Shown piece by piece: positions 648 through 47,346 of a DNA stretch of 50,877 bases. The stretch spans positions 1 through 50,877 of the forward strand of contig NZ_JAEUMO010000087.1 of assembly GCF_016793285.1 (NCBI RefSeq), in the 5' to 3' direction. Every line of letters starts with the position of its first letter. Within the stretch, counting starts at the first letter, position 1. The DNA comes from Phenylobacterium sp. (GTDB lineage: Bacteria; Pseudomonadota; Alphaproteobacteria; Caulobacterales; Caulobacteraceae). The translations under genes were made by a program, and so were the position numbers. Below the pieces are notes generated by a model. That model worked only from the letters and a program-made list of their open reading frames with translations, did not search any database and was not told where the DNA came from.

Positions 648-695
648 CCTGCCCGATCCATGCTTTCCTGCGTCCGAGTCGGGCGGGGGGAAAGC

Positions 696-2003
696 ATGCG
701 GCGGCGCGAGGTTCTGACGGCTCTGGCGGGGCTGGGCGCGACGGCGGCGGCGCCCGCGCGGCGACCACCCAACGTAGTGGTGATCCTGGCCGACGACCTG
801 GGCTGGGGCGACCTCGGCAGCTACGGCTCGAAGCTGATCGCCACACCGAACCTCGACCGCCTGGCGCGCGAGGGCGTGCGGCTCACCGACTTCTACGCTT
901 CGGCCAACGTCTGCACGCCGTCACGGGCCGGGCTGCTCACCGGCCGCTATCCGATCCGCACCGGCCTTGCGAACCAGGTCATCCAGGCGCCCGACACCAA
1001 CGGCCTGCCGCTGTCGGAAGTGACGCTCGCCGAGGCGCTGAAGCCCGACTACGCCACCGCCCTGGTCGGCAAGTGGCACCTGGGGCACGTCGCGCCCTAC
1101 TGGCCGCCGACGGTGCAGGGCTTCGACCTCTTCTTCGGCCTGCCGTACAGCCACGACATGAAGCCGCTCGCGCTTTACGAGAGCCGCGCCGGCGGCGACC
1201 TCACGCGCGAGGACGTGGATTTCCCGCGGCTCACGCAGCGGTTCTTCAAGCGCGGCCGGCGCTTCATCGAGGACAACCGCGACCGCCCGTTCCTGCTGAT
1301 GCTGACCCTGACGGCGCCGCACCTGGAGCTGTTCCCGAACCCCGCGTTCGCCGGCCGCTCGCGCGCCGCCGCCTACGGCGACGTGGTGGAGGAGATCGAC
1401 GTCGAGGTGGGCCGGCTGCGCGAGCACCTGAAGCGCCTGTCGCTCGACCGCGACACCATCGTCATCTTCACCTCGGACAACGGGCCGTGGTTCGAGGGGT
1501 CGGCCGGACCGATGCGCGACCGCAAGGGCGGCGCGTCGTGGGACGGCGGCTACCGCGCGCCCTTCATCGCCTGGGCGCCCGGCCGCCTGCCGGCCGGCAA
1601 GCTGCGCCGCGGCATCGCCATGAACACCGACGTGCTGCCGACCGTGCTTTCGCTCTGCGGCCGTCCCGCCCCCGCCGTCGAACTGGACGGCCGCGACCTC
1701 ACGGCGCTCCTGACCCGCGACGCGGCGAGTCCGCACGACGAGCTGGTGCTGTTCAACAACGAGCAGGTGGCGGCCATCCGCACCGACCGCTGGAAGTACG
1801 TCGACCGCAGCTACTACCGCACGATCGACCTGCCGCTGTCGGCCCGCTACCAGCCGCTGCTGTTCGACGTCCGCGCGGACCCCGCGGAGGTCTACAACCT
1901 GGCCTCCCTGCATCCGGCCGTCATGGCGGAGATGAAGGGCCGCTTCGACCGCGCGAAGGCGACGTTCGAGCCGCTGGGCAGGCGTTACAAGCCGCCGGGC
2001 TGA
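696..2003 (+). CDS. Sulfatase (arylsulfatase family)
   Basis: A type I sulfatase of about 435 residues that hydrolyses sulfate esters; the substrate cannot be told from sequence. The signature CTPSR at residues 73-77 supplies the cysteine converted to formylglycine. An early Asp pair (33-34, in LADDLGWGDLGSYG) fits the metal site, and TSDNGPW carries later metal ligands. The N-terminus MRRREVLTALAGLGATAAAP looks like a Tat-type signal, suggesting periplasmic export. I prefer the ATG at 696, which has a purine-rich GGGGAAAG just upstream and starts at the signal peptide; an in-frame ATG at 660 would add 12 residues. No formylglycine-generating enzyme gene is in the window. Length is normal for the family. 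Confidence 0.92.
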   Translation: MRRREVLTALAGLGATAAAPARRPPNVVVILADDLGWGDLGSYGSKLIATPNLDRLAREGVRLTDFYASANVCTPSRAGLLTGRYPIRTGLANQVIQAPDTNGLPLSEVTLAEALKPDYATALVGKWHLGHVAPYWPPTVQGFDLFFGLPYSHDMKPLALYESRAGGDLTREDVDFPRLTQRFFKRGRRFIEDNRDRPFLLMLTLTAPHLELFPNPAFAGRSRAAAYGDVVEEIDVEVGRLREHLKRLSLDRDTIVIFTSDNGPWFEGSAGPMRDRKGGASWDGGYRAPFIAWAPGRLPAGKLRRGIAMNTDVLPTVLSLCGRPAPAVELDGRDLTALLTRDAASPHDELVLFNNEQVAAIRTDRWKYVDRSYYRTIDLPLSARYQPLLFDVRADPAEVYNLASLHPAVMAEMKGRFDRAKATFEPLGRRYKPPG

Positions 2004-2046
2004 CCCGGCGGCGCCGCACGATGGTGCGACGGCGCGAGCTTTCGCC

Positions 2047-2052
2047 TATATA
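2047..2052 (+). promoter_or_regulatory. Candidate -10 element just upstream of dapF
   Basis: TATATA lies 10 bp before the dapF ATG, in otherwise very GC-rich DNA. If used as a -10 box, transcription would start about 3-4 nt before the ATG, giving a nearly leaderless mRNA. No Shine-Dalgarno-like sequence is present and no clear -35 is visible, so this is tentative. Confidence 0.3.
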
Positions 2053-2062
2053 GCCCGCCGCC

Positions 2063-2884
2063 ATGAGCCGTCCGTTCCTGAAGATGAACGGGCTCGGCAA
2101 CGACTTCGTCGTCGTCGAGACCCGCAGCGCCCCGTTCGAACCGACGGCCGACGAAGTGCGCGCGATCGCCGACCGCGAGACGGGCGTCGGCTGTGACCAG
2201 CTCATCGCCATCGACAGGGCCGAGGGCGCCGACGCGCGCGTTCGCTTCTGGAACGCAGACGGCGAGGCGGTGGGCGCCTGCGGAAACGGGACGCGCTGCG
2301 TCGGCTGGCTGCTCATGCAGTCGTCCGGCAAGGACGAGGCGGTGATGGAGACGGCGGCCGGCCGGCTCGTCGCCACCCGCGCCGGCGAGCGGCTGGTCAG
2401 CGTCGACATGGGCGAGCCGCGGCTCGACTGGCGCGAGATTCCGCTCGCCACCGAACACGACACCGCGACCCTGCCCGTGGCGCTCTACCCGCACGCCGAT
2501 CTGATGGCCCCGCCGGGTTGCGTCTCGATGGGCAACCCGCACGTCGTGTTCTTCGTGCCGGACGTGGCCCAGGCGCCGGTCGCCGAGGCGGGTCCCGTGG
2601 TCGAAAAGCACCCCCTGTTCCCGGAGCACGTCAATGTCGGCTTCGCCCAGATCGGGGCGTCCGACCGGATCCGCCTGCGGGTCTGGGAGCGCGGCGCGGG
2701 GCTGACGAAGGCGTGCGGCACCGGCGCCTGCGCGGCGCTGGTCGCGGCGGCGCGGCGCGGCCTGACCGGCCGCCACGCGACGATCGAGCTCGACGGCGGC
2801 GAACTCTTCATCGAGTGGCGCGACGACGGCCACGTGATCATGACCGGGCCCGCGGCCGTCGACTTCGCCGGCGAACTGCCGTGA
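2063..2884 (+). CDS. dapF: Diaminopimelate epimerase
   Basis: Cofactor-free epimerase converting LL- to meso-diaminopimelate in lysine and peptidoglycan synthesis; cytosolic. The 273-residue length is typical. The two catalytic cysteines are visible: C73 in GACGNGTRC and C218 in KACGTGACA. The N-terminus FLKMNGLGNDFVVV is the family's usual opening, which fixes the ATG at 2063. The stop overlaps the GTG start of the next gene (GTGA), so the signal-peptidase-like protein and then mtaB appear translationally coupled to it. In many alphaproteobacteria dapF sits beside mtaB, so the gene between them is the unusual part of this locus. Confidence 0.97.
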   Translation: MSRPFLKMNGLGNDFVVVETRSAPFEPTADEVRAIADRETGVGCDQLIAIDRAEGADARVRFWNADGEAVGACGNGTRCVGWLLMQSSGKDEAVMETAAGRLVATRAGERLVSVDMGEPRLDWREIPLATEHDTATLPVALYPHADLMAPPGCVSMGNPHVVFFVPDVAQAPVAEAGPVVEKHPLFPEHVNVGFAQIGASDRIRLRVWERGAGLTKACGTGACAALVAAARRGLTGRHATIELDGGELFIEWRDDGHVIMTGPAAVDFAGELP

Positions 2885-3780
2885 CGGCGCCCACGACGGA
2901 CGCGCGCCCGCGCCACTGGTGGGCGGCGATGATCCTGAACGTGCTGTTCCCGCCTGCGGGCTACGCCTACGTCGGCGCCTGGATGGCCGTGGCGATCACC
3001 CTGCTGATCATCGTCACGGTGCCGATCCTGGTGATGGTGGCGACGCTGGAGTATCCGCCCGGGCTCTACGCGGCCGGCATGGGGCCGGCGATCTGGGCCA
3101 GCCTCGCCGTCCTTGCGGTCCTGGGCCTGCACGCTGCGCTGCTGGCGCGCCGCGCGCCGTCGCGGACGGGGTCGCAACTGCCGCATGGCCTGCTCTACAT
3201 GGCGCCGTGGGCGGTGGCGTTCGCGGTGAATCTCGCGTTCAACGCCTACTGGCCGAACCCGGCCTACGCGATCACGGCGCGCGCCATGCAGCCCACGCTG
3301 GAGCCTGGCGATGTGCTGGCGGTCGAAGGCGCGCGCAACGCCTGCGCGGCGCAGCCCAAACCCGGCGACGTGGTGCTCTACCGCACCGGCCCGGCCAGCC
3401 AGGCCCTGATGCGCGTCGTGGCGGGCCCCGGCCAGCGGGTGATGATGGCCTCGGGCCAGCTCTTCATCGACGGCAAGCCGGTCGAGCGGACGTCGGCGGG
3501 CGCGACGCGGGTCATGGAGACGCCGCTGCCGGTCGAGATCGTCGAGGAGACGCTGGCGAACGGCGCGCGCTACCGCACCCTGGATTTCGGCCCGGAGGGC
3601 GCCCTCGACACCCTGCACGAGGTCACGGTCCCGGCCGGCGCGTGGTACGTCCTGGGCGACAACCGCGACAACGCCGCCGATTCCCGCACGAACGGCCTCG
3701 TCGCCGCGCGCGACATCTGCGCGGTGGGCCTGAAGGTGCTGTCGAGCAAGGACGAGAGCCGTGTCGGCCAACGACCCTGA
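2881..3780 (+). CDS. Signal peptidase I-like protein lacking the catalytic Ser and Lys
   Basis: A 299-residue protein with an S26-type signal peptidase domain (about 130-290) behind roughly four hydrophobic segments (about 15-35, 35-55, 70-88, 105-122). Family boxes are easy to align: RAMQPTLEPGD (134-144), GDVVLY (162-167), LMRVVAGPG (176-184) and GDNRDNAADSR (259-269). In active enzymes the first box has Ser before Met and the third has Lys before Arg. Here these are Ala135 and Met177, both confirmed in the codons. The Ser-Lys dyad is therefore gone while the fold markers remain, so I predict a non-proteolytic homologue, not the cell's essential LepB. The start is a GTG overlapping the dapF stop, and the end overlaps mtaB by 20 bp. 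Its role is unknown; a chaperone-like or regulatory membrane role is speculation. Confidence 0.85.
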   Translation: MTAPTTDARPRHWWAAMILNVLFPPAGYAYVGAWMAVAITLLIIVTVPILVMVATLEYPPGLYAAGMGPAIWASLAVLAVLGLHAALLARRAPSRTGSQLPHGLLYMAPWAVAFAVNLAFNAYWPNPAYAITARAMQPTLEPGDVLAVEGARNACAAQPKPGDVVLYRTGPASQALMRVVAGPGQRVMMASGQLFIDGKPVERTSAGATRVMETPLPVEIVEETLANGARYRTLDFGPEGALDTLHEVTVPAGAWYVLGDNRDNAADSRTNGLVAARDICAVGLKVLSSKDESRVGQRP

Positions 3781-5098
3781 CCTGGGCCAGCCGGGCCTCG
3801 AGCCGGGCGCCGCGGACGTCGTGGACGATGCCGCCGACGCCGACGTGCGCATCGTCACGTTCGGCTGCCGCCTGAACGCCTACGAGAGCGAGGTCATCAG
3901 GAAGCGCGCCGCCGAGGACGGACTGACCGACGCGGTCGTCTTCAACACCTGCGCGGTGACCAACGAAGCCGTGCGCCAGGCGCGGCAGGCGATCCGGAAG
4001 GCGCGGCGCGAACGCCCGGCCGCGAAGCTGATCGTCACCGGCTGCGCGGCGCAGATCGACCCCGCCGCCTTCGGCGCCATGCCCGAGGTCGACCTGGTCC
4101 TGGGCAACGCCGAGAAGAGCGCGGCCGGCGCCTACAAGCCGCAGCCTGAACCGATGAAGGTCCGCGTCAACGACATCATGAGCGTGCGCGAGACGGCCGG
4201 CCACCTGATCGACGGGCTGAAGGACCGGGCGCGGGCCTATGTCGAGGTCCAGAACGGCTGCGACCATCGCTGCACCTTCTGCATCATCCCCTACGGCCGC
4301 GGGAACTCGCGCTCGGCGCCGGCGGGCGAGGTGGTCGAGCAGGTGCGCAAGCTCGCCGCACAGGGCTACCGCGAGGTGGTGCTGACCGGGGTCGACGTGA
4401 CGAGCTGGGGCGCCGACCTGCCGGGCCGGCCGACGCTGGGCCAGCTCGTGGCGCGGATCCTGAAGCTGGTCCCCGGCCTGCCGCGGCTGCGCCTGTCGTC
4501 GATCGATGCGGCCGAAATCGACCCCGACCTGATGCGCTGCCTGGCCGAGGAATCACGGCTGATGCCGTATCTGCACCTCAGCCTCCAGGCCGGCGACGAC
4601 ATGATCCTGAAGCGGATGAAGCGGCGGCACCTGCGGGCCGACGCGCTCAGGCTGGTGCGCGAGGTCCGCGCCGTGCGGCCCGACGTGGCGTTCGGCGCCG
4701 ACCTCATCGCCGGCTTCCCGACCGAGACGGACGAGATGTTCGCCAACACGCTGCGGCTGGTGGACGAGGCCGACCTGGCCTTCCTGCACGTCTTCCCCTT
4801 CAGCCCGCGGCCCGGCACGCCCGCCGCACGGATCCCGCCCGTGAAGCGCGACGTCGTGAAGGCCCGGGCGGCCGAGCTGCGTGCGTTCGGCGAGGCGGCG
4901 CTGGCGCGGCACCTGGGCCGGCAGCAGGGCCGCGTGCTCTCGGGCCTGGTCGAACGCCCCGGTGTGGCGCGCGCGGAGGACTTTACTGAGATCGCCTTCA
5001 CGGGCGAGGCGCCGGTGGGCGAGGTCATCTCGCTGCGGGTGACCGGCCACGACGGCAAGCGCGTGCTGGCCGAGACGCTGGCCACGGCGGTCGCATGA
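3761..5098 (+). CDS. mtaB: tRNA t6A37 methylthiotransferase MtaB
   Basis: Radical-SAM methylthiotransferase that converts N6-threonylcarbamoyladenosine at tRNA position 37 to its 2-methylthio form. The N-terminal UPF0004 domain has its three cluster cysteines (C36 in FGCRLNA, C64 in FNTCAVT, C95 in VTGCAAQ). The radical SAM motif CDHRCTFC has C167, C171 and C174. FGCRLNAYESEV is typical of MtaB as opposed to MiaB or RimO. The GTG at 3761 gives an acidic/Ala-rich lead of about 29 residues before the conserved domain; a later start, for example a GTG near 3846, is possible. The gene overlaps the preceding gene by 20 bp and the following gene by 4 bp (ATGA). Confidence 0.94.
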   Translation: MSANDPDLGQPGLEPGAADVVDDAADADVRIVTFGCRLNAYESEVIRKRAAEDGLTDAVVFNTCAVTNEAVRQARQAIRKARRERPAAKLIVTGCAAQIDPAAFGAMPEVDLVLGNAEKSAAGAYKPQPEPMKVRVNDIMSVRETAGHLIDGLKDRARAYVEVQNGCDHRCTFCIIPYGRGNSRSAPAGEVVEQVRKLAAQGYREVVLTGVDVTSWGADLPGRPTLGQLVARILKLVPGLPRLRLSSIDAAEIDPDLMRCLAEESRLMPYLHLSLQAGDDMILKRMKRRHLRADALRLVREVRAVRPDVAFGADLIAGFPTETDEMFANTLRLVDEADLAFLHVFPFSPRPGTPAARIPPVKRDVVKARAAELRAFGEAALARHLGRQQGRVLSGLVERPGVARAEDFTEIAFTGEAPVGEVISLRVTGHDGKRVLAETLATAVA

Positions 5099-5532
5099 GC
5101 ATCACCGGCGGCTGCCAATGCGGCGCCGTCCGCTTCCGCGCCGACGGCCTGGGCGAGGCCAGCATCTGCCACTGCCGCATGTGCCAGAAGGCCACAGGCG
5201 GCCTCTTCGGTCCCTATGTGGCGCTGGACGGCCTCGTCTGGACGCGGGGCGAGCGCAGGCGCTTCCAGAGTTCCAACAAGGTCTGGCGCGGGTTCTGCGA
5301 GGCGTGCGGCACGCCTCTGACCTGGGAGCACGCAGGCGGCCTCATGTCGGTGACGATCGGGGCGCTGGACGATCCGGCGCGCGTGCGCGTCTCCGAACAA
5401 CTCGGCAGTGCGGCCAAGGTCCCGTGGGTCGACGACCTTCCGCGCCTGCCGGTCCACGAGCCGACCGAGCCGCAGGCTGCCGCGCACCTCGCCAGCATCG
5501 TCAGCCGGCAGCACCCCGACCACGACACCTGA
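5095..5532 (+). CDS. GFA-family zinc protein, copy 1
   Basis: A 145-residue member of the GFA/CENP-V family, small zinc proteins named after glutathione-dependent formaldehyde-activating enzyme; most members have no proven substrate. Zinc-ligand cysteines are present: GGCQCGAVRF, ICHCRMCQKATGG and CEACGTPL. It overlaps mtaB by ATGA, so it is co-translated with it. It is closely similar to the next gene (both begin with the same CQCGAVRF block and share the CHCRMCQKATGGLFGPYV stretch), showing a tandem duplication. The function beyond the family name is not known. Confidence 0.9.
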   Translation: MSITGGCQCGAVRFRADGLGEASICHCRMCQKATGGLFGPYVALDGLVWTRGERRRFQSSNKVWRGFCEACGTPLTWEHAGGLMSVTIGALDDPARVRVSEQLGSAAKVPWVDDLPRLPVHEPTEPQAAAHLASIVSRQHPDHDT

Positions 5533-5542
5533 CGGAGGCGAC

Positions 5543-5977
5543 ATGGCGTTCACCGGCGGCTGCCAGTGCGGCGCGGTGCGGTTCGAAGCGGGGCGGCTGG
5601 GCCGCTCCAGCATCTGCCATTGCCGCATGTGCCAGAAGGCGACGGGCGGGCTCTTCGGCCCCTATGTCGACGTCTTCGACTTCACCTGGACCCGCGGGCC
5701 GCCGCGGTACTTTGCGAGCTCGGAGGCGGTGAAGCGCGGCTTCTGCGGGGCCTGCGGCACGCCGCTCAGCTTCGAGATGGGCGAGAGCGTCGGCGTGTCC
5801 ATCGGCGCCCTCGATGATCCCGAACTCGCGCCGCCCGCCCGCCAGCTCGTCTGGCCCGCGAAGCTCTCGTATGTCGACCGCCTGGGCGGCCTGCCGCACT
5901 GGACGAACCCGAAGACCGGCCAGGGCCCGTCCGAGACCTTCGCGGCGGTGAAGTCGAACCAGGACACCTCTTCCTAG
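5543..5977 (+). CDS. GFA-family zinc protein, copy 2
   Basis: A 144-residue paralogue of the preceding gene, with the same zinc ligands (CQCG, CHCRMC, CGACGTPL). The ATG at 5543 is chosen because a strong GGAGG lies 5 bases upstream and because it aligns with the start of copy 1; the reading frame stays open further upstream but that would overlap copy 1. The gap from copy 1 is 10 bp, so both are in the dapF-mtaB transcription unit. The C-terminal third (PARQLVWPAKLSYVDRL) has diverged from copy 1, which suggests the duplication is not recent. Confidence 0.9.
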   Translation: MAFTGGCQCGAVRFEAGRLGRSSICHCRMCQKATGGLFGPYVDVFDFTWTRGPPRYFASSEAVKRGFCGACGTPLSFEMGESVGVSIGALDDPELAPPARQLVWPAKLSYVDRLGGLPHWTNPKTGQGPSETFAAVKSNQDTSS

Positions 5978-46110: not shown

Positions 46111-47346
46111 ATGGTGAACGCGAAGGCCTTCATGTCGTCCGTACCCCAACAGCATCACACGACGCTCGACGTCCACGCCCTCCGCGAGGCGCTCGAGGCC
46201 CACCAGCGCTACCTGGCGGGACGGTCGGGCGGACGGCGCCTGGCGCTGCACTATGCCGACCTCGCCAACTGCAGCCTGGAAGGCGTCGACCTGCGCGACG
46301 CGGACCTGACGGGCGCGAAGCTCGCCGGCGCGACCCTGGCGCGCTCCAACCTCTCCCGCGCGATCCTCTTCGGCGCCGACCTGCGCGAAGCCGACATGCG
46401 CCACGTCAACCTGAAGCGGGCCGACCTGCGCGGCGCGTGCATGCGCGGCGCGAACCTGGCGGGCGCCGAACTCGCCGGCTGCGACCTGCGCGAGGGCCGC
46501 ATCGCCCTGCAGGACAAGCTGGACGGCTTCCGGATCCTTCGCCACGAGCACCGGCCGGGCGAGCTGAACTTCGCCGTGCTGTCGGGCGCCAACCTGGCCG
46601 GCGCGCAGATGAGCGGCGCGGTCGCCATGACCAGCGACTTCACCGACGCGAACCTGGCGGGCGCGGTGCTGGTGGGCGCGAAGCTCATGCGCGCGGTGCT
46701 GGACGGCGCCGACCTGTCGGGCGCCGACCTGGGCGGCGCCGACCTCACGGGCGCCTCGATGAAGCGCGCGGTGCTGAACGGGGCGAACCTCAACCAGGCG
46801 CGGCTCGACGACTGCGACCTGGCGGGCGTGCTGCGCGCGCCGCCGCCGATCTTCTACATCGACGACAAGTCGCTGACCGAGGTAGTGGCCGAGCACGAGG
46901 CCTTCTGCGACACCAACGGCGGTCAGGGCGTGGTGATGAAGCTCTCGGAGGTCGACTTCCGCCCGCTGAAGTCGCTGAAGCGCCGGCGGCTGTCGGGGCT
47001 CTCGGCGCCCAACTCGATCTTCTTCGGCATGGACCTGGAGGGCGCGCAGCTCCAGGGCGCCGACCTGTCGGGCTGCGACTTCCGGGGCGCGAACCTGCGC
47101 GAGGCCGACCTGCGCGGCGCGCGCTTCACGAACGCCCAGCTCGCGCGGGCCGACCTGCGCGGCGCGAAGATGGGACCGCTGGCGATCGGCGACAACCGCT
47201 TCGTGCGCACCGACTTCTCCCGCGCCTCGCTGCGCGGCGCCGACCTGCGCGGCGCCTCCGCGCCGCGTGCGCGGTTCCTGGAGGCCGAGATGGACGGAGC
47301 CCGTCTCGCCGGCTGCGACATCTCCGGCGCCGAGCTGGAAATCTGA
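46111..47346 (+). CDS. Pentapeptide-repeat protein
   Basis: A 411-residue protein built largely of A(D/N)LxG-type pentapeptides that should fold as right-handed beta helices. The repeats fall into two blocks, about residues 50-245 and 305-405, split by a non-repeat segment (about 250-300: DDKSLTEVVAEHEAFCDTNG and onward). A helical lead (TTLDVHALREALEAHQRYLA) precedes block one. There is no signal peptide or helix spanning the membrane. Some pentapeptide proteins mimic DNA and protect gyrase; others have unrelated or unknown roles, so no function is claimed. The start at 46111 is ambiguous; an ATG at 46132 is possible. Confidence 0.9.
   Translation: MVNAKAFMSSVPQQHHTTLDVHALREALEAHQRYLAGRSGGRRLALHYADLANCSLEGVDLRDADLTGAKLAGATLARSNLSRAILFGADLREADMRHVNLKRADLRGACMRGANLAGAELAGCDLREGRIALQDKLDGFRILRHEHRPGELNFAVLSGANLAGAQMSGAVAMTSDFTDANLAGAVLVGAKLMRAVLDGADLSGADLGGADLTGASMKRAVLNGANLNQARLDDCDLAGVLRAPPPIFYIDDKSLTEVVAEHEAFCDTNGGQGVVMKLSEVDFRPLKSLKRRRLSGLSAPNSIFFGMDLEGAQLQGADLSGCDFRGANLREADLRGARFTNAQLARADLRGAKMGPLAIGDNRFVRTDFSRASLRGADLRGASAPRARFLEAEMDGARLAGCDISGAELEI

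Follow-up and report, generated by a model that had tools for sequence, protein, structure and literature searches.

A signal peptidase I homologue lacking its catalytic residues lies between dapF and mtaB in Phenylobacterium

The analysed stretch of DNA, hereafter the window, comprises 50,877 nucleotides of Phenylobacterium sp. (RefSeq assembly GCF_016793285.1, contig NZ_JAEUMO010000087.1), and the gene under study, which encodes a pseudo-signal-peptidase, occupies positions 2881-3780 of its forward strand. The coding sequence starts with GTG, runs for 299 codons without an internal stop and was delimited by its open reading frame (ORF) and translation, a match to Pfam Peptidase_S26 (PF10502) and an alignment of 23 family members. 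Residues 112-281 of the 299-amino-acid protein match PF10502 with E=7.4e-22, which places it in the S26 fold, and NCBIfam TIGR02227, ‘signal peptidase I’, scores it at 87.9 bits, the cutoff being 47. The protein consists of an N-terminal membrane domain (residues 1-124, positions 2881-3252) and an S26 domain (residues 125-299, positions 3253-3777), the latter predicted to be periplasmic. Upstream lies dapF, encoding diaminopimelate epimerase (2063-2884, forward strand; Pfam DAP_epimerase, E=1e-56), and downstream a gene for an mtaB-like tRNA methylthiotransferase (3761-5098, forward strand; Pfam Radical_SAM and UPF0004), the name mtaB being taken from the first-pass annotation. The overlaps reported in that annotation were recovered, four bases with dapF (GTGA, 2881-2884) and 20 bases with mtaB (3761-3780), the latter if the GTG at 3761 is the mtaB start codon.

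The catalytic dyad is absent from the S26 domain. The catalytic Ser is replaced by Ala135 (codon gcc, 3283-3285), before Met136 in the ITARAMQPTL box, and the catalytic Lys by Met177 (codon atg, 3409-3411), before Arg178 in QALMRVVAGPGQ, while the S26 box GDNRDNAADSR is present at residues 259-269 (3655-3687). Both losses had been named in the first-pass annotation, but its count was too low, as four site residues are gone. Aligned with E. coli LepB, in the usual LepB numbering, the window protein has Ala133 (3277-3279) for Ser88, Ala135 for Ser90, Met177 for Lys145 and Ala265 for Ser278; the first and last of these replacements are the additional ones. Ser88 lies on the oxyanion side of the LepB active site. 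The equivalents of Arg146, Gly272, Asp273, Asn274, Arg275, Asp280 and Arg282 are kept. According to PMC4049620, Ser90, Lys145, Gly272 and Ser278 all have roles in signal peptidase, and Ser278 positions Lys145. The fold and, judged by residue type, the hydrophobic cleft of the window protein appear to be kept despite the loss of the dyad. An alternative Ser/Lys pairing was ruled out because residues 99-172 contain no Ser and residues 161-198 no Lys. A relocated general base was likewise ruled out, since no Lys or His has become conserved around the site in the family, and a sequencing error or frameshift is unlikely, the same Ala and Met being found in a second genome (G136, protein 86% identical). 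Ser-Lys peptidase activity of the window protein is almost certainly impossible, and the label that the equivalog TIGR02227 assigns to it, well above its cutoff, is wrong as to chemistry.

The genome also encodes intact signal peptidases, the presence of which the first-pass annotation had proposed to check. A genome-wide PF10502 search (4.49 Mb, completeness 96.9%) returned three loci, namely two intact LepB and the window gene. Both intact proteins carry SASM, YVKR and GDNRDNSSDSR, and one is encoded next to a ribonuclease III gene. The window gene as the sole signal peptidase of the genome was ruled out by these two LepB.

The fusion to several membrane helices noted in the first-pass annotation is borne out by the structural model, which predicts three long helices (residues 34-57, 67-91 and 101-123) and a short one (13-22) in the N-terminal domain; the domain also carries the motif LNxxFPPxGYAYxGAW. 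The modelled helices, taken with Arg90, Arg91 and Arg95 in the loop that precedes the final one, would place the S26 domain in the periplasm. The N-terminal domain gave no significant Pfam match (DUF2628, E 0.82, for the window protein; YitT, E 0.078, for 1/23 members), and searching 199 Caulobacteraceae genomes for it at E<=1e-5 gave ten matches, all of them S26-bearing family members (genome G409, described below, was outside this sample). The three-helix domain is found in 16 of the 23 members. Among the seven without it, inspection by eye indicated a short hydrophobic stretch in G163 and G438 and a short N-terminus in four members of another genus. The remaining one, G172 (L013:1501-2076), starts, as judged by eye, with a lipobox-like LAGC sequence that the S26 domain follows immediately, an unusual anchor for a signal peptidase.

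The family profile was built from the first 14 members, which belong by construction, and nine more were found with it. At E<=1e-42, members were present in 23/390 Caulobacteraceae genomes (20/311 among the better genomes), although the genome searches scored only the best six to nine candidates per genome (the best six in the family and class searches), so some members may be missed. No member besides the window protein was found at E<=1e-40 among 385 genomes drawn over the class. Identity of the members to the window protein ranges from 32 to 86%, and the weakest member scored 213 bits, compared with at most 138.4 bits outside the family when the order was searched (G391, an intact lepB). 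All 23 match PF10502; ten also match Peptidase_S24, at best with E 1.7e-6, more weakly than S26. A tree that combined the 23 members with 34 lepB rows, of which 33 remained distinct once trimmed, set the members on one side of a branch with a Shimodaira-Hasegawa-like approximate likelihood ratio (SH-aLRT) support of 100. The same split (100/100) appeared in a more careful tree that used 12 of these lepB rows and left out the site columns. The lepB rows had been picked from 43 loci by a pattern requiring intact Ser and Lys, and their intactness is no finding. A scan of genome contigs yielded 13 loci, consisting of 11 full-length relatives, a membrane-only protein and a Solirubrobacteraceae locus (28% identity). 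Tandem lepB-like pairs, with two S26 matches about 0.4-0.5 kb apart, were seen at each of the loci L026 and L028 (genomes G103 and G111). The plasmid search with the window protein gave 63 records, all of which covered less than 80% of the query; ten of the 63 were listed, at 32-34% identity. Another probable pseudo-S26 protein in Alphaproteobacteria is annotated as ‘lepB’ on a Rhizobium tumorigenes plasmid (L125:2471-3040, WP_111222228.1); it retains the Ser, Thr takes the place of the Lys (VALTRIIGLPGE), and inspection by eye revealed no membrane anchor.

The site residues were tabulated across the family as triplets at the Ser90/Lys145/Ser278 positions, with G000 denoting the window genome. 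Within the genus, the triplets were A/M/A (G000, G136), S/H/S (G108), A/H/A (G160, G006, G427), S/H/A (G039, G408, G419, G442), S/A/S (G457), A/L/A (G424), S/S/A (G172) and S/G/A (G163, G438). In other genera, they were S/K/S (G191, G100, G494), S/S/S (G076), A/D/A (G010), S/I/S (G117) and S/R/A (G189, G522). Ser was thus present in 16/23 (Ala in the other seven) and Lys in 3/23, both in the same three members; no intact dyad, which the first-pass annotation had named as grounds for withdrawing its claim if found in sister species, occurred in the 15 members of the window's genus, and the dyads were confined to other genera. The family ancestor was therefore probably active. The Lys145 column holds ten residue types, including His in eight members, five of which keep Ser90; the Ser88 column holds S in 18, A in 3, T in 1 and N in 1, and the Ser278 column S in 7 and A in 16. 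Each of the seven Ser-less members lacks Lys as well, a further 13 retain only the Ser of the dyad and none has Lys without Ser, and Lys was therefore probably lost before Ser. The fewest changes on the tree were five for Ser90, ten between letters (four if scored as kept or not) for Lys145 and six for Ser278, on a tree in which several deep forks are weakly supported and G010, G076 and G100 form long branches. Comparing Lys145 loss with Ser278 loss left few independent pairs, two of them on supported branches. Residues invariant in 23/23 members include Tyr129, Pro138, Asp144, Cys155 (3343-3345), Arg178, Asp260, Arg262, Asp267, Arg269 and Cys280 (3718-3720). The two Cys are specific to the family, the 12 lepB rows compared having I, V or L at the Cys155 position and V or I at that of Cys280, and given a periplasmic domain a Cys155-Cys280 disulfide is likely.

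The gene context of the 23 members within the fetched stretches was dapF and mtaB in 18, dapF only in four, and neither in one (G010, beside priA). In G191 (by Pfam) and G076 (by eye), a short-chain dehydrogenase-type ORF lies between dapF and the gene. The slot was surveyed within the genus at the 30 loci with the best dapF matches, out of 94 genomes with dapF among 101. The gene was present in 13 of them, dapF and mtaB adjoined without it in 15, and other proteins occupied the slot in G409 and G421. No gene remnant was seen in eight gene-less dapF-mtaB junctions that were read, so gain or loss at the slot involves the entire gene. In G409, the slot encodes a protein of 142 amino acids (L089:2322-2750) that comprises the membrane domain only, without an S26 domain; this protein and the seven members without the three-helix domain show that either module can stand alone. 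The G409 mtaB begins at the end of the 142-amino-acid protein, and L123 is a similar locus. In G421, a MAPEG-family protein (L103:2321-2740; PF01124, E=6.9e-17) lies between dapF and mtaB. Over evolution the family gene is dispensable, as close relatives lack it and one has the membrane domain only. Elsewhere in the window, two adjoining GFA-domain paralogues (5095-5974; PF04828, E=6.6e-20 and 4.3e-18) look like a tandem duplication, and positions 46111-47343 encode a 411-amino-acid protein made up mostly of pentapeptide repeats (PF00805, E=7.6e-72).

Selective constraint was estimated as omega (Nei-Gojobori method, codon bootstrap), with synonymous divergence (dS) likely underestimated at this GC content. 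For the pair G000/G136, both A/M/A, omega was 0.273 (0.176-0.400) over the whole protein and 0.285 (0.152-0.480) over the S26 domain; first, second and third codon positions differed at 30, 20 and 72 sites, respectively. The S/G/A pair G163/G438 gave 0.068 (0.030-0.118), and G160/G006 and G408/G427 gave 0.264 and 0.269; pairs without bootstrap included G006/G419 (0.286) and G160/G039 (0.416). The intact LepB of G000/G136, a single pair without bootstrap, served as a yardstick and had an omega of 0.211. Purifying selection thus persists after the loss of the dyad, at a level not far from that on intact LepB and weaker than that on dapF and mtaB. Neither frame breaks nor lost purifying selection, the marks of a decayed pseudogene, were found, and the protein of the window lineage is in all likelihood kept by selection, even though all four of its site residues are gone, a greater loss than in its nearest relative.

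We propose, at roughly even confidence, that the gene encodes a maintained, membrane-anchored pseudo-signal-peptidase that binds peptides without cutting them, its ligand and partner being putative. An active S26 peptidase would have been the ancestral occupant of the dapF-mtaB slot of Caulobacteraceae; its general base, Lys145, would have been lost first and Ser90 later, in several lineages, and the window lineage has lost Ser88, Ser90, Lys145 and Ser278. Three transmembrane helices would anchor the S26 domain to the inner membrane on its periplasmic side, and there the still hydrophobic S1/S3 groove could bind a short extended peptide uncut, likely candidates being the c-region of a signal peptide or the N-terminus of an exported protein. 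The protein may act as a chaperone, scaffold or decoy, as has been proposed for SipA in pilus assembly. More tentatively, and short of even confidence, the slot may present a natural series from signal peptidase to non-catalytic binder, with the window protein as a receptor for signal peptides in a Gram-negative periplasm, or a regulator of LepB, derived from the enzyme itself. At the same tentative level, the stages of that series would be an intact Ser-Lys-Ser site, Ser alone or with His, and the loss of Ser too, along with swapped anchors and, once, the membrane domain alone.

Several observations weigh against this reading. Carriage is patchy even at genus level (15/101 genomes by profile search), and in G178, despite a DapF identity of 93%, dapF and mtaB abut with nothing in between. 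The G409 protein indicates that the groove is not always needed. The gene evolves faster than its neighbours (0.273 for G000/G136 versus 0.085 for dapF and 0.137 for mtaB), and constraint is weak in places, with an omega of 0.356 for G160/G408, of 0.532 (0.348-0.808) for the S26 domain of that pair alone, and of 0.437 for G442/G424 over the whole protein, without bootstrap. The predicted structure is of middling quality, with a mean predicted local distance difference test score (pLDDT) of 76.1 and a predicted template modelling score (pTM) of 0.61 from 12 sequences. For SipA itself, binding of pilin peptides could not be demonstrated in the cited study (PMC4049620).

It is a serious possibility, if one we hold somewhat less probable, that the gene is a slowly dying relic, because it is so often missing. 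A redundant LepB paralogue, its activity no longer necessary, would then drift with only weak folding and insertion constraint and be deleted lineage by lineage, sometimes piecewise, which would fit its presence in only 23/390 genomes of the family and 15/101 of the genus, its absence between adjoining dapF and mtaB at half of the 30 loci read, the G409 protein, the rate of evolution relative to dapF and mtaB and the ten residue types at the Lys position. Slow loss accords less well with omega values that are clearly under 1 in members devoid of the dyad (0.285 for the S26 domain, 0.068 for G163/G438), with frames that are open in 23/23 members, though G522 has no clear start, and with two Cys and seven box residues that are invariant over members as little as 32% identical to the window protein. 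It also fits poorly with the four-base overlap between dapF and the start of the gene that 11 of the 12 full-length members in the genus show, their starts having been chosen partly for this overlap. The first-pass interpretation, a protein maintained rather than decaying, is partly supported, with the open frame and the omega of 0.273 in its favour and the patchy presence and faster evolution than the neighbours against it.

Two further explanations appear improbable. The membrane domain might be the working part, for example by partnering LepB or an exporter, with the S26 domain spare. The retention of a membrane-only protein in the G409 slot and the omega of 0.129 for the membrane domain of G160/G408, versus 0.532 for the S26 domain, point that way, but G172, G163, G438 and the four members of another genus keep the S26 domain only, behind a short N-terminus, and in the other bootstrapped pairs both domains are about equally constrained. 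Marginally less probable still is persistent or new catalysis, in which the five members with Ser and His would be Ser-His peptidases like the archaeal and endoplasmic reticulum type (S26B) and the window protein would use another residue. The eight His members, the invariant Asp280 and the weak matches of the family profile to human SEC11A and SEC11C (E 1.9e-4 and 3.7e-5) are what such catalysis would lead one to expect. The window site, however, has neither Ser nor His, and its stretch from residue 99 to 172 is devoid of Ser; near relatives of the His members have M, L or A instead. Nor is there a new conserved base near the site, Lys being found in at least 8/23 members at columns 160, 285, 290 and 292 and His at 84, 126 and 177.

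The literature matches listed contained no report on the dapF-mtaB pseudo-signal-peptidase family and no case of a Gram-negative pseudo-signal-peptidase, the searches being mostly not aimed at the latter; ‘signal peptidase’ combined with ‘Phenylobacterium’ gave no match, and signal peptidase is not mentioned in the available portion of a pseudoenzyme review (PMC10211241). Relative to E. coli LepB (MEROPS S26A), the window protein lacks the equivalents of Ser88, Ser90, Lys145 and Ser278, and thereby all three residues expected of an active S26A enzyme, having Ala135, Met177 and Ala265 for the last three. It has three long N-terminal helices where LepB has two, and its family has the invariant Cys pair, which the 12 lepB rows compared lack. 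The S26B enzymes (SEC11 and archaeal, Ser-His-Asp) are approached by the 8/23 members with His at the position of the S26B base, whereas the window protein, with Ala135 and Met177, has no Ser or His there and the SEC11 profile match is weak. SpsA of Staphylococcus aureus is an inactive paralogue of SpsB that reportedly lacks two conserved catalytic residues and is dispensable (PMC12445088). It resembles the window protein, by description only, as a second signal-peptidase-like protein beside an active one (PMC12445088). The streptococcal SipA is likewise without the dyad, with the fold and hydrophobic cleft kept, a likeness that for the window protein is drawn from residue type in the cleft. 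SipA is not known to carry the three-helix domain. SipA is encoded in Gram-positive sortase-pilus operons and the window gene between dapF and mtaB, with no pilin or sortase among the five proteins scanned at 660-5532, and the residue losses in SipA and in the window family are probably independent. In Streptococcus pyogenes, SipA is a pseudo-signal-peptidase needed for pilus assembly (PMC4049620). The window family offers a graded set (intact, Ser only, Ser with His, and neither) that would allow a direct test of how a protease becomes a binder, and one of its members, a Ser-His relative, comes from P. kunshanense BUT-10 (L117), which is in culture. Pseudo-signal-peptidases are already known from streptococci (SipA) and staphylococci (SpsA), and the window family is a variant of that theme.
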